From the NCBI RefSeq assembly GCF_003402535.2, contig NZ_AP025171.1:434001-498000 (forward strand): 64,000 nucleotides of DNA. Reading direction: 5' to 3'. The DNA comes from Cupriavidus sp. P-10. GTDB lineage: Bacteria; Pseudomonadota; Gammaproteobacteria; Burkholderiales; Burkholderiaceae. Under the pieces are notes generated by a model that made no database searches, was not told the origin of the DNA, and was given only the letters and a program-made list of their open reading frames with translations. How positions within the stretch are numbered: position 1 is the stretch's first letter; the number at the start of each line of letters is the position of its first letter. This document shows, piece after piece, positions 36,586-43,791 of the stretch. The position numbers were made by a program, and so were the translations under genes.

Positions 36586-36603
36586 CATCGTCCGTTCAGC
36601 CTA
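36586..36603 (-). promoter_or_regulatory. Catabolic operator copy E
   Basis: On the minus strand TAGGCTGAACGGACGATG, 14 of 16 fixed positions; it overlaps the stop codon of cysNC and points toward the LuxR gene. This suggests auto- or cross-regulation of the regulator. Confidence 0.6.
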
Positions 36604-38556
36604 AGGCTTATCCCGCAGCCACGCTACGACCCGCTCCGCCGCTTGTTCCGCCGTGTCGGCCGTGGTGTCGATGCGCAGTTCGGGCCGTTCAGGCGCCTCG
36701 TACGGCGAATCGATGCCGGTGAAGTTCTTCAGCTCGCCACGCCGCGCCTTGCGGTACAGCCCCTTGGGATCGCGCTCCTCTGCCACCGCCAGCGGCGTAT
36801 CGATGAAGACTTCGACAAATTCCCCGTCGCCTGCCAGCGCGCGCGCCATCTCGCGCTCGGAGCGGAACGGCGAGATAAACGAGACCAGCACGATCAGCCC
36901 GGCATCGAGCATCAGCCTTGCCACTTCCGCCACGCGCCGGATGTTCTCGACGCGGTCGGCCTCGGAGAAGCCCAGGTCCTTGTTCAGCCCATGGCGCACG
37001 TTGTCGCCGTCGAGCAGGTAGGTGTGGTGGCCCAGCGCATGCAGGCGCTTTTCCACCAGGTTGGCGATGGTGGACTTGCCCGCGCCGGAGAGCCCGGTGA
37101 ACCAGACGATGCGCGGCGACTGGTGCTTGAGCGCGGCGTGGGCGTGCCGGTCCACGTCGATGGCCTGCCAGTGGACGTTTTGCGCCCGGCGCAGCGCGAA
37201 GTGCAGCATGCCGGCGCCGACGGTGTTGTTGGTCAGCCGGTCGATGATGATGAAGCCGCCCAGCTCGCGGCTGCGTGCATAGGGGTCGAACGCCACCGGC
37301 CGGTCCAGGTGCAGGTTGCAGACGCCGATTTCATTGAGTTCCAGCGTGCGCGCGGCCAGCTGTTCGAGGGTATTGACGTTGACCTTGTATTTGGGCTGCG
37401 CGACGGTCACGCCCACGGTGCGCGTGCCAAGCTTGAGCAGGTAGGGACGGCCGGGCAGCATCGCGTCCTCGTTCATCCACACCAGCGTGGCTTCGAACTG
37501 GTCGGCCACCGCGGGCGGGTCTTCCGCGCACGCCAGCACGTCGCCGCGGCTGATGTCGATCTCGTCGGCCAGCGTCAGCGTCACCGCCTGGCCGCGTACG
37601 GCATGCTCGCATTCGCCATCGGCACCAACGATGCTGGCGACGCGGGACTCCCGGCCGGAGGGAAGGGCGCGAACGCGGTCGCCGCGGCGGATCTCGCCGG
37701 CGCTGACGGTGCCGGCGAAGCCGCGGAAGTCCAGGTTGGGGCGGTTGACCCACTGCACCGGCAGCCGGAACGTTTCGTCCTGCACGGGGGCGCTGTCGAT
37801 CGGCACGGTCTCCAGGTGTTGCATCAGCGTCGGGCCCTGGTACCACGGCGTGTTGGCACTGGGCGCGGTGATGTTGTCGCCGCGCAGCGCGGACATCGGG
37901 ATGCAGGTGATATCGGTCAGGCCGATCTGGCGTGCGAATTCGCGGTACCCGGCTTCGATGCGCGTGTAAACCTCGCGCGAATAGTCCACCATGTCGAGCT
38001 TGTTGACCGCCAGCACCACGCGCCGGATGCCCAGCGTGGATACCAGGTAGCTGTGACGGCGCGTCTGCGTCTGCACGCCGCGGCGCGCATCCACCAGCAG
38101 GATGGCGAGGTCGGCGGTCGATGCGCCGGTGACCATGTTGCGCGTGTATTGCTCATGCCCCGGCGTGTCGGCGACGATGAACTTGCGTTTGTCGGTGGCA
38201 AAGAAGCGGTAGGCGACATCGATGGTGATGCCCTGCTCGCGCTCGGCGGCCAGGCCGTCCACCAGCAGCGCGAAATCGAGGTTGTCGCCCTGCGTGCCCA
38301 TCTTCTTCGAGTCGGCTTCGAGCTGCGCGAGCTGGTCCTCGAACAGCATCTTCGATTCGTACAGCAGCCGGCCGATCAGCGTGCTCTTGCCGTCGTCGAC
38401 GCTGCCGCAGGTGATAAAGCGCAGCAGGCTCTTGCCTTGCTGCGCACGCAGGTAGTCGGCGATATCGTGCTGTGCCGCATTTTTCGCCGCGTTTTTCGCC
38501 GCGTTTGCCGCCGCTTGTGACGCCGATTCCGGCGCGTTGTCGATCAAGGTTTCCAT
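36601..38556 (-). CDS. cysNC: Bifunctional sulfate adenylyltransferase large subunit/APS kinase
   Basis: 651 residues, a fusion of CysN and CysC. The CysN part has the GTPase P-loop GSVDDGKST (51-59), DTPGHEQY and NKLDMVD. The CysC part has the P-loop GLSGAGKST (488-496), LDGDNVRHGLN and the phosphorylated-Ser motif ISPFRSERE. With CysD it makes APS from sulfate and ATP, then phosphorylates it to PAPS, the sulfonate donor. The N-terminus contains an Ala/Asn/Lys repeat encoded by a 12-base tandem repeat. The start overlaps the cysD stop by one base. The fused kinase is a sign of PAPS production for sulfotransferases, and the divergent operon encodes one. Confidence 0.95.
   Translation of the reverse strand: METLIDNAPESASQAAANAAKNAAKNAAQHDIADYLRAQQGKSLLRFITCGSVDDGKSTLIGRLLYESKMLFEDQLAQLEADSKKMGTQGDNLDFALLVDGLAAEREQGITIDVAYRFFATDKRKFIVADTPGHEQYTRNMVTGASTADLAILLVDARRGVQTQTRRHSYLVSTLGIRRVVLAVNKLDMVDYSREVYTRIEAGYREFARQIGLTDITCIPMSALRGDNITAPSANTPWYQGPTLMQHLETVPIDSAPVQDETFRLPVQWVNRPNLDFRGFAGTVSAGEIRRGDRVRALPSGRESRVASIVGADGECEHAVRGQAVTLTLADEIDISRGDVLACAEDPPAVADQFEATLVWMNEDAMLPGRPYLLKLGTRTVGVTVAQPKYKVNVNTLEQLAARTLELNEIGVCNLHLDRPVAFDPYARSRELGGFIIIDRLTNNTVGAGMLHFALRRAQNVHWQAIDVDRHAHAALKHQSPRIVWFTGLSGAGKSTIANLVEKRLHALGHHTYLLDGDNVRHGLNKDLGFSEADRVENIRRVAEVARLMLDAGLIVLVSFISPFRSEREMARALAGDGEFVEVFIDTPLAVAEERDPKGLYRKARRGELKNFTGIDSPYEAPERPELRIDTTADTAEQAAERVVAWLRDKP
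38474..38509. repeat. 12-base tandem repeat inside the cysNC start region
   Basis: GCCGCATTTTTC, GCCGCGTTTTTC and GCCGCGTTTGCC. Read on the minus strand it encodes repeated Ala-Ala-Lys-Asn near residues 15-28, before the conserved GTPase domain. Confidence 0.75.
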
Positions 38557-42771: not shown

Positions 42772-42804
42772 CCCGCCGGACTGACTGCTCAACTGCCAAC
42801 TGGC

Positions 42805-43791
42805 ATGACCCGCTACTTTGCCTTCAACGGCGACGCCGACGGCCTGTGCGCCTTGCAGCAGCTGCGCCTGGCGCATCCTGGCGATGCGACCCTGGTCACC
42901 GGCGTCAAGCGCGATATCCGCCTGCTCGAGCGGATCGACGCTTGCGCCGGCGATACCGTGACCGCGCTGGACATCTCGCTCGAACAGAACCGGGACGGGC
43001 TGCTGCGGCTGCTCGCCGCCGGCGCGCAGGTGGACTACTTCGACCACCATCACGCCGGCGAACTGCCGTCGCATGCCGGGCTGCGCGCGCATATCGACGA
43101 AGCCGCGGCGGTCTGCACCAGCACCCTGGTCGACCGCCACCTGGCCGGGCGCCACCAGCGCTGGGCCATCACCGCTGCCTTTGGCGACAACCTGGGCGAC
43201 GTGGCGCGCACCATGGCGGCGCAGGCACGGCTGGACGCGCGCGAGACCGTGCTGCTGGAACGGCTCGGCACCTGCCTGAACTACAACGCGTATGGCGAGT
43301 GCGTGGCGGACCTGCATTGCGATCCCGCCGAACTGGCCCGGCACATGTTGCCGTTCGCGGACCCGCTGGATTTCGCCGGGCAATGCGACGCCTACGCGCT
43401 GCTGTGCGACGGCTACGAGGACGACATGGCGCAGGCGCGCCGGCTGGCGCCTGTGCATGAAGTCCCTGGCGCGGCGCTGCTGGTGCTGCCCGACGCGCCA
43501 TGGGCGCGGCGTGCGATCGGGGTGCTGGCCAATGAGCTGGTGCGCGGGCGTCCCGGCGATGCGATCGGCCTGCTGTCGCCCAGGTCCGGCGGCGGCTTTG
43601 CGGTCAGCGTGCGGGTGCCTGCGCACAGCGCCACCGGCGCGGCCGACTTCTGCCGAGGCTTCGAGACCGGCGGTGGCCGGCGCCTGGCCGGCGGCATCAA
43701 CCACCTGCCCGACGCCGAGGTAGAGCGCTTTACGCGCAGCTTTGCCGACTGCTACGGCGCGCCGCTCAGCCCGGCGGGACAAACTCCGTAA
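42805..43791 (+). CDS. DHH/DHHA1-family phosphoesterase, possible PAP phosphatase
   Basis: 328 residues. The DHH domain has NGDADGLCAL (Asp10, Asp12) and DYFDHHHAGE (DHH at 80-82), plus GDNLGD. The C-terminal DHHA1 part has RSGGGFAVSVR and GGGRRLAGGI. Relatives include NrnA-type oligoribonucleases, which also hydrolyse 3'-phosphoadenosine 5'-phosphate. Since a sulfotransferase is encoded two genes upstream, clearing its PAP by-product is the most attractive role, though RecJ-like or cyclic-dinucleotide functions are possible. The 3' end overlaps the convergent RibBA-like gene by 26 bases. Confidence 0.8.
   Translation: MTRYFAFNGDADGLCALQQLRLAHPGDATLVTGVKRDIRLLERIDACAGDTVTALDISLEQNRDGLLRLLAAGAQVDYFDHHHAGELPSHAGLRAHIDEAAAVCTSTLVDRHLAGRHQRWAITAAFGDNLGDVARTMAAQARLDARETVLLERLGTCLNYNAYGECVADLHCDPAELARHMLPFADPLDFAGQCDAYALLCDGYEDDMAQARRLAPVHEVPGAALLVLPDAPWARRAIGVLANELVRGRPGDAIGLLSPRSGGGFAVSVRVPAHSATGAADFCRGFETGGGRRLAGGINHLPDAEVERFTRSFADCYGAPLSPAGQTP

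Follow-up and report, generated by a model that had tools for sequence, protein, structure and literature searches.

In rhizobia, duplicate copies of the sulfate-activating enzymes CysD and CysNC (NodP and NodQ) are reserved for one sulfotransferase, NodH (or NoeE), within a dedicated regulon, and serve to make Nod factor. A sulfotransferase provided for in the same way was found in Cupriavidus sp. P-10 (GCF_003402535.2; 9.08 Mb in five contigs), at positions 36601-43791 of a window of 64,000 nucleotides (C2:434001-498000; contig NZ_AP025171.1), where cysD and a cysNC fusion stand beside genes for a DUF1214 protein, a sulfotransferase, a short-chain dehydrogenase/reductase (SDR) and a DHH-type phosphoesterase. 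Unlike the rhizobial system, this module lies in a steroid catabolism regulon and adds the SDR, the DUF1214 protein and a DHH protein resembling phosphatases of 3'-phosphoadenosine 5'-phosphate (PAP). It is probably a dedicated module, dependent on 3'-phosphoadenosine 5'-phosphosulfate (PAPS), for the purposeful sulfonation of a steroid-derived metabolite within the regulon of the 9,10-seco pathway; this reading draws on sequence, namely on gene content, a separate assimilatory gene set, operators, co-occurrence with HsaC and a core found in mycobacteria. The new elements are a PAPS cycle kept private and placed under a catabolic operator, and a trio (DUF1214, sulfotransferase, SDR) common to this lineage and mycobacteria; the nearest known system, NodPQ-NodH, is biosynthetic.

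Other described systems resemble parts of the module (papers are cited by PMC number, for statements in the excerpts drawn on here). The mycobacterial group Rv3531c-Rv3530c-Rv3529c (PMC1995591, PMC6429209) has the same core and the same hsaE-hsaG-hsaF and kstD neighbourhood; it is ordered DUF1214-SDR-sulfotransferase where the window has DUF1214-sulfotransferase-SDR, is controlled by the TetR-type regulator KstR, and appears in a 2019 table (PMC6429209) under the labels hypothetical or possible oxidoreductase. At the end of CurM-type polyketide synthases a keto group is reduced, sulfonation turns the alcohol into a good leaving group, and elimination follows (PMC5577590). As in the module, a ketoreductase-type enzyme and a sulfotransferase are joined by a third enzyme, but the polyketide route is biosynthetic and carrier-bound and a thioesterase carries out the elimination; to place DUF1214 in that role is conjecture. 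The PAP phosphatase MtPAPP of Methanothermococcus thermolithotrophicus (PDB 8a8k; PMC10322725) shares fold and metal ligands with the DHH protein and is likewise encoded near genes for ATP sulfurylase and adenosine 5'-phosphosulfate (APS) kinase, but serves archaeal sulfate assimilation, not sulfonation. In the open-licence PMC literature, no paper on a sulfotransferase or a sulfonated intermediate in bacterial steroid catabolism was found; cholesteryl sulfate comes up in the excerpt of PMC6678751, where it is a P450 substrate rather than an intermediate of the cell's own making.

Open reading frame (ORF) and profile searches returned the gene set, order and strands that a preliminary description of this DNA had given for 36601-43791:

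36601-38556 (-): cysNC fusion, sulfate adenylyltransferase large subunit and APS kinase (PF00009 and PF01583; NF004035, 1094.9 bits, cut-off 715)
38556-39452 (-): cysD, sulfate adenylyltransferase small subunit (NF009214, 577 bits, cut-off 413; TIGR02039, 507.9 bits)
39543-39558 (-): operator palindrome facing cysD, core TAGTCCGCCCGGACGA (exact TAGTCCNNNNGGACNA; conserved in relatives)
39588-39603 (+): operator palindrome facing the DUF1214 gene, core TAGTCCGCCCGGACGA (exact TAGTCCNNNNGGACNA; conserved in relatives)
39664-40773 (+): DUF1214 protein (PF06742, 30.4 bits, cut-off 25)
40770-41948 (+): sulfotransferase with PRTGTT loop (PF13469, 142.7 bits, cut-off 27; 2.5e-41)
41980-42771 (+): SDR with SGxGPGLG motif (NF005909, 365.6 bits, cut-off 258)
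42805-43791 (+): DHH-DHHA1 phosphoesterase, probable PAP phosphatase (DHH fold by fold comparison)

The cysNC and cysD genes diverge from the DUF1214, sulfotransferase, SDR and DHH genes around the two mirrored palindromes, and the sulfotransferase ATG overlaps the DUF1214 stop.

CysD, CysNC and the kinase domain all scored above curated cut-offs (NF009214, NF004035 and TIGR00455), and the APS kinase domain (PF01583, 2.3e-69) was the sole PF01583 match in the genome. The preliminary description had allowed that the pair would serve assimilation if it were the only cysD/cysN of the genome; a second pair, 48% and 49% identical to the module copies, lies on another contig (C1, 2.88 Mb). Its neighbours encode CysH, a protein of the sulfite/nitrite reductase family (CysI-like), a uroporphyrinogen-III methyltransferase and a CysB-type regulator. 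The C1 CysH scored above the APS-reductase model TIGR02055 and below the PAPS-type model TIGR00434, and also passed NF002537, a general CysH model named phosphoadenylyl-sulfate reductase. Since the C1 set has an APS-type reductase and so needs no APS kinase, it counts against the module genes as the assimilation set. No APS/PAPS reductase or sulfite reductase was recognised among the scanned ORFs of the window, and the module cysD and cysNC are predicted not to serve assimilation. That they form one more assimilation set, with the sulfotransferase an unrelated neighbour, is very improbable. CysD and CysN are by family assimilation enzymes and APS kinases are widespread in the host family (at least 168 of 299 genomes), but assimilation has its own operon on C1, the mirrored operators link both arms of the module, and an APS kinase lies within 16 kb of the sulfotransferase gene, on the same contig, in 43 of the 44 genomes that carry the latter.

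The mirrored operator pair previously noted at 39541-39605 is real and no coincidence, with arms at 39518-39564 and 39582-39628. The operator reads TAGTCC-N4-GGAC-N-A, and TAGTCCNNNNGGACNA occurs exactly in five places of the 9.08 Mb: two are in the module, and the others lie about 70 bases ahead of hsaC, about 60 bases ahead of kshA and on C1. The module thus has its operator in common with core steroid genes. With one mismatch allowed, 64 distinct places were found genome-wide, 11 of them in C2:464887-520535 (1.16 expected in the 164 kb examined; binomial p 2e-8). A reversed control pattern was commoner in the genome (206 and 221 matches against 46 and 32), so the operator signal consists in clustering and not in total number. 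Ten of the 11 clustered sites lie before or between genes. The one-mismatch copies in the window, and two genes beside the module, are:

30887-30902 (+): operator copy between divergent SDR genes (gene starts set by the onset of family alignments)
33769-33784 (+): operator copy overlapping the end of a TetR-type gene
34105-34593 (-): SRPBCC/polyketide-cyclase-fold protein that often accompanies the module (PF10604)
34654-34669 (+): operator copy upstream of the SRPBCC gene
35284-36423 (-): LuxR-type regulator beside cysNC, candidate regulator of the module (PF00196)
46885-46900 (-): operator copy between an SDR gene, 45850-46797 (-), and a LuxR gene starting at 47063 (+)
50093-50108 (+): operator copy upstream of where the HsaA-like gene begins to align (HsaA alignment starts at residue 75 of the ORF)
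60376-60391 (+): operator copy before a SnoaL-like gene, 60476-60910

Upstream of the DUF1214 gene in the loci of 40 relatives, two GTCC-N4-GGAC palindromes were present in 33, one in three and none in four. When the window was aligned with 12 chosen relatives, both operators stood out as conserved blocks in otherwise diverged DNA; they were degenerate in loci L175, L176, L177 and L178.

As to regulators, three LuxR-type genes (PF00196) occur in one steroid cluster, at 35284-36423 (-), 47063-48265 (+) and, outside the window, L205:598-1785 (+). The two in the window are 72-74% identical in DNA over stretches of 156 and 193 bases. A GC-rich palindromic repeat resembling repetitive extragenic palindromes, CTCTCCCGC..GCGGGAGAG, is present in four copies (35182, 36453, 50007 and 59328) between or beside steroid genes.

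The distribution of the module was surveyed in 299 genomes of the host family, host included. The sulfotransferase was found in 44 (E <=1e-60) and an HsaC-type protein (>=55% identity) in 52; 16 more genomes matched HsaC at <=38% only and were left uncounted. All 44 sulfotransferase genomes fell within the 52 with HsaC, and none of the other 247 carried it (Fisher p 7e-45, for genomes that are related and so not independent). Sulfotransferase and HsaC genes shared a contig in 17 of the 44 genomes and lay on different contigs in 27. In genus g282, where sulfotransferase identity was the same as for the named Burkholderia matches, all nine sulfotransferase genomes of <=4 contigs have the two genes on different contigs, which argues that their link is not mere proximity.

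Neighbourhoods were fetched for 40 of the other 43 sulfotransferase genes (G608, G631 and G666 were left out), a comparison the preliminary description had called for. Relatives of the DUF1214 protein, sulfotransferase, SDR, DHH protein and LuxR-type regulator were present in 40/40 loci, cysD in 37, cysNC in 36 and the SRPBCC gene in 30, so that a dedicated CysD/CysNC beside the sulfotransferase, as in NodPQ-NodH, is usual at these loci. The lowest identities were 53% (DUF1214), 56% (SDR) and 57% (DHH). In L182, L201 and L202 no cysDN was present within the fetched 20 kb, and L177 had cysD but no cysNC; in these four genomes an APS kinase frame of >=649 aa lies 11-16 kb from the sulfotransferase gene. 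In G666 a contig opens with that gene and carries the APS kinase 3.88 Mb away, so their adjacency is unproven. L182 (SDR relative 6 kb from the sulfotransferase gene), L201 and L202 belong to a more distant clade (sulfotransferase 48% identical) in which the core adjoins an hsaE-type gene, an arrangement intermediate between that of the window and that of mycobacteria.

A scan of named genomes was led by a mycobacterial gene chain, and the best 80 loci, all from mycobacteria, were examined. DUF1214, SDR and sulfotransferase genes were contiguous and collinear in 79, the exception being a contig end. Identities to the module proteins were about 30% (DUF1214), 35% (SDR) and 31% (sulfotransferase), with a range of 26-37%. 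The hsaE, hsaG and hsaF genes were on the same stretch in 58 of these loci, and many stretches end sooner. Unlike in the window, no cysD, cysNC or DHH relative was present on any stretch fetched for these loci. The mycobacterial trio is Rv3531c-Rv3530c-Rv3529c by gene order, not by the sequence of those genes. A motif bound by KstR lies between Rv3531c and Rv3532, and in a kstR mutant the orthologue MSMEG_5932 was derepressed six-fold (PMC1995591). The table of PMC6429209 places Rv3531c among the genes predicted essential or specifically required; it lists Rv3529c as neither proven nor predicted essential and marks Rv3530c with the footnote letter of Rv3529c. The category mixes growth on cholesterol with survival in the host. 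Genes for DUF1214, sulfotransferase and SDR also occur close together at two loci on sphingomonad plasmids. The proposal that the module is wired into a steroid regulon is borne out by the operator common to module, hsaC and kshA, by the co-occurrence with HsaC and by the mycobacterial counterpart beside hsa genes, which at the level of sequence make the case a strong one.

The sulfotransferase is the sole PF13469 protein of the genome in a genome-wide search with that model. It aligned with PDB 2zq5 (2.5e-45) over residues 6-382 of 392, and RTGTT and THR with the following S were invariant in eight aligned sequences. PRTGTT corresponds to the 5' PAPS loop, and the distal R...S motif is present as well; by family and motifs, this protein is a predicted PAPS-dependent sulfotransferase. 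Its closest named matches were from Cupriavidus (up to 92% identical), and C. necator proteins were among the matches. The NoeE model scored far below its cut-off (15.3 bits against 500; E 0.0059). On a Planktothrix agardhii plasmid (L219), a type I polyketide synthase carries a C-terminal sulfotransferase domain 32% identical to the module protein. The SDR was 36-37% identical to two Mycobacterium SDRs, which have the SGxGPGLG turn in common with it. The DUF1214 protein matched PDB 6ans with 642.7 bits and is, by conjecture, a candidate enzyme acting on the sulfate ester.

The preliminary description had taken the DHH protein for a plausible by-product hydrolase, and its fold and metal ligands agree with that of a PAP phosphatase. 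It had no Pfam or NCBIfam match in profile searches; in two fold comparisons the assayed PAP phosphatase MtPAPP ranked first both times, at 12% identity. Residues D10, D12, D56, D128, H81 and H82 were invariant and match the list of four Asp and two His ligands in PMC10322725, the correspondence being set by motif order; MtPAPP His6 is replaced by Asn8. The DHH protein is probably a PAP phosphatase. It may instead be a nanoRNase or another nucleotide phosphoesterase, uninformative on sulfonation, which we regard as unlikely. The fold is common to RecJ, NrnA and c-di-AMP/pApA phosphodiesterases, the same six ligands occur in RecJ and NrnA, DHH relatives are frequent elsewhere, and His6 is lost. 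The first-ranked fold match, low as its identity is, the DHH relative near the sulfotransferase gene in all 40 fetched loci of the family, and a genome in which no CysQ scored above cut-off speak for PAP; NrnA too hydrolyses PAP (PMC10322725, as excerpted). With 4490 proteins at E <=0.001, the family of DHH proteins is a large one, and several members named acetyltransferase by their sources look misannotated.

On a steroid, a regulator acting at the TAGTCC-N4-GGAC sites would turn on both arms of the module. CysD and CysNC would make APS and then PAPS, and the SDR would make or present a hydroxyl on a steroid-derived intermediate (its origin from a ketone is conjecture). The sulfotransferase would turn this steroid-derived hydroxyl into a sulfate ester, the DHH protein would convert PAP to AMP so that PAP could not inhibit the sulfotransferase, and DUF1214 might, by conjecture, act on the ester. 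By analogy with the curacin-type (CurM-type) chain end, this last step would most likely be an elimination with sulfate as the leaving group, which is put forward tentatively. Built out in full, with the SDR reducing a carbonyl, the sulfotransferase esterifying and DUF1214 a new lyase giving a double bond, it would be an unrecognised activate-and-eliminate step, run in Burkholderiaceae on a private PAPS cycle and in mycobacteria by the trio under KstR; this we hold to be doubtful. The catabolic use of sulfate as a leaving group would, if true, be new chemistry for the field as far as we know. The proposed mechanism has points against it: to our knowledge the known chemistry of the seco pathway requires no such step, 8/52 HsaC genomes lacked the sulfotransferase at E <=1e-60, and fold comparisons gave DUF1214 no close relative of known function.

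The main rival is a safety valve: sulfonation of a toxic or poorly soluble hydroxylated or phenolic intermediate, such as the seco-steroid phenol or the catechol derived from it, would serve against toxicity, for solubility or for retention in the cell, as a non-obligatory step with DUF1214 as a binding or isomerising partner. We consider this possible, with rather less than an even chance. Detoxification is a usual role of sulfotransferases, and the wiring fits equally well; the eight HsaC genomes in which no sulfotransferase was found and the filing of Rv3529c as not predicted essential (PMC6429209) suit a dispensable step. A core kept across phyla with SDR and DUF1214 is more than a transferase needs, however, and the same table counts Rv3531c, the DUF1214 gene, among those predicted essential or specifically required. 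Moreover, no sulfatase that could release the compound again was recognised among window and flank genes in a partial scan. A sulfated product off the catabolic path, a signal, surfactant or surface lipid useful during steroid feeding, is quite improbable. Modules of the NodPQ-NodH kind make sulfated signals and some mycobacterial sulfotransferases act on lipids; but the operator is common with hsaC and kshA, the sulfotransferase is nested within HsaC genomes even on separate contigs, and the core adjoins hsaEGF in mycobacteria and an hsaE-type gene in L182, L201 and L202.

KstR control in mycobacteria and the operators before hsaC and kshA point weakly to a substrate with an intact ring system or with rings A/B. 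Testosterone supported growth of Cupriavidus necator (ATCC 17699) whereas cholesterol and cholate did not (PMC4810484, as excerpted), which suggests a C19 substrate. Bacterial steroid breakdown is studied for pollutant removal, the production of drug precursors and the biology of tuberculosis. The trio in the host family, mycobacteria and two sphingomonad loci, in one lineage with a dedicated PAPS cycle, may point to a missing chemical step or to an overlooked protection system. It would also offer a functional handle on DUF1214, the structure of which is solved, and on KstR-controlled genes called hypothetical in the 2019 table.

The window also holds an HsaA-like monooxygenase, KstD-like dehydrogenases, a FadD3-type ligase, HsaE/F/G-type enzymes and two of the LuxR-type regulators. 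Just outside are the third LuxR-type gene, the HsaC-type dioxygenase, a CoA transferase, an enoyl-CoA hydratase and KshA (PF19298, 252 bits). HsaA and HsaC scored 379.9 and 293.9 bits, each below the curated cut-off of 450, and are therefore called relatives and not curated members. A luciferase-like monooxygenase ORF, 48337-49986 (+), separates a LuxR gene from the HsaA-like one; its family match begins at residue 183, so that the true start probably lies downstream of 48337. Beyond the window and close to kshA are ORFs for an MMPL-family transporter, L206:93-1253 (+), and an IS110-type transposase, L206:7119-7541 (+). Cellulose biosynthesis genes (BcsG, BcsE, BcsZ and BcsB) lie beside the steroid cluster at 8967-23398 (-).

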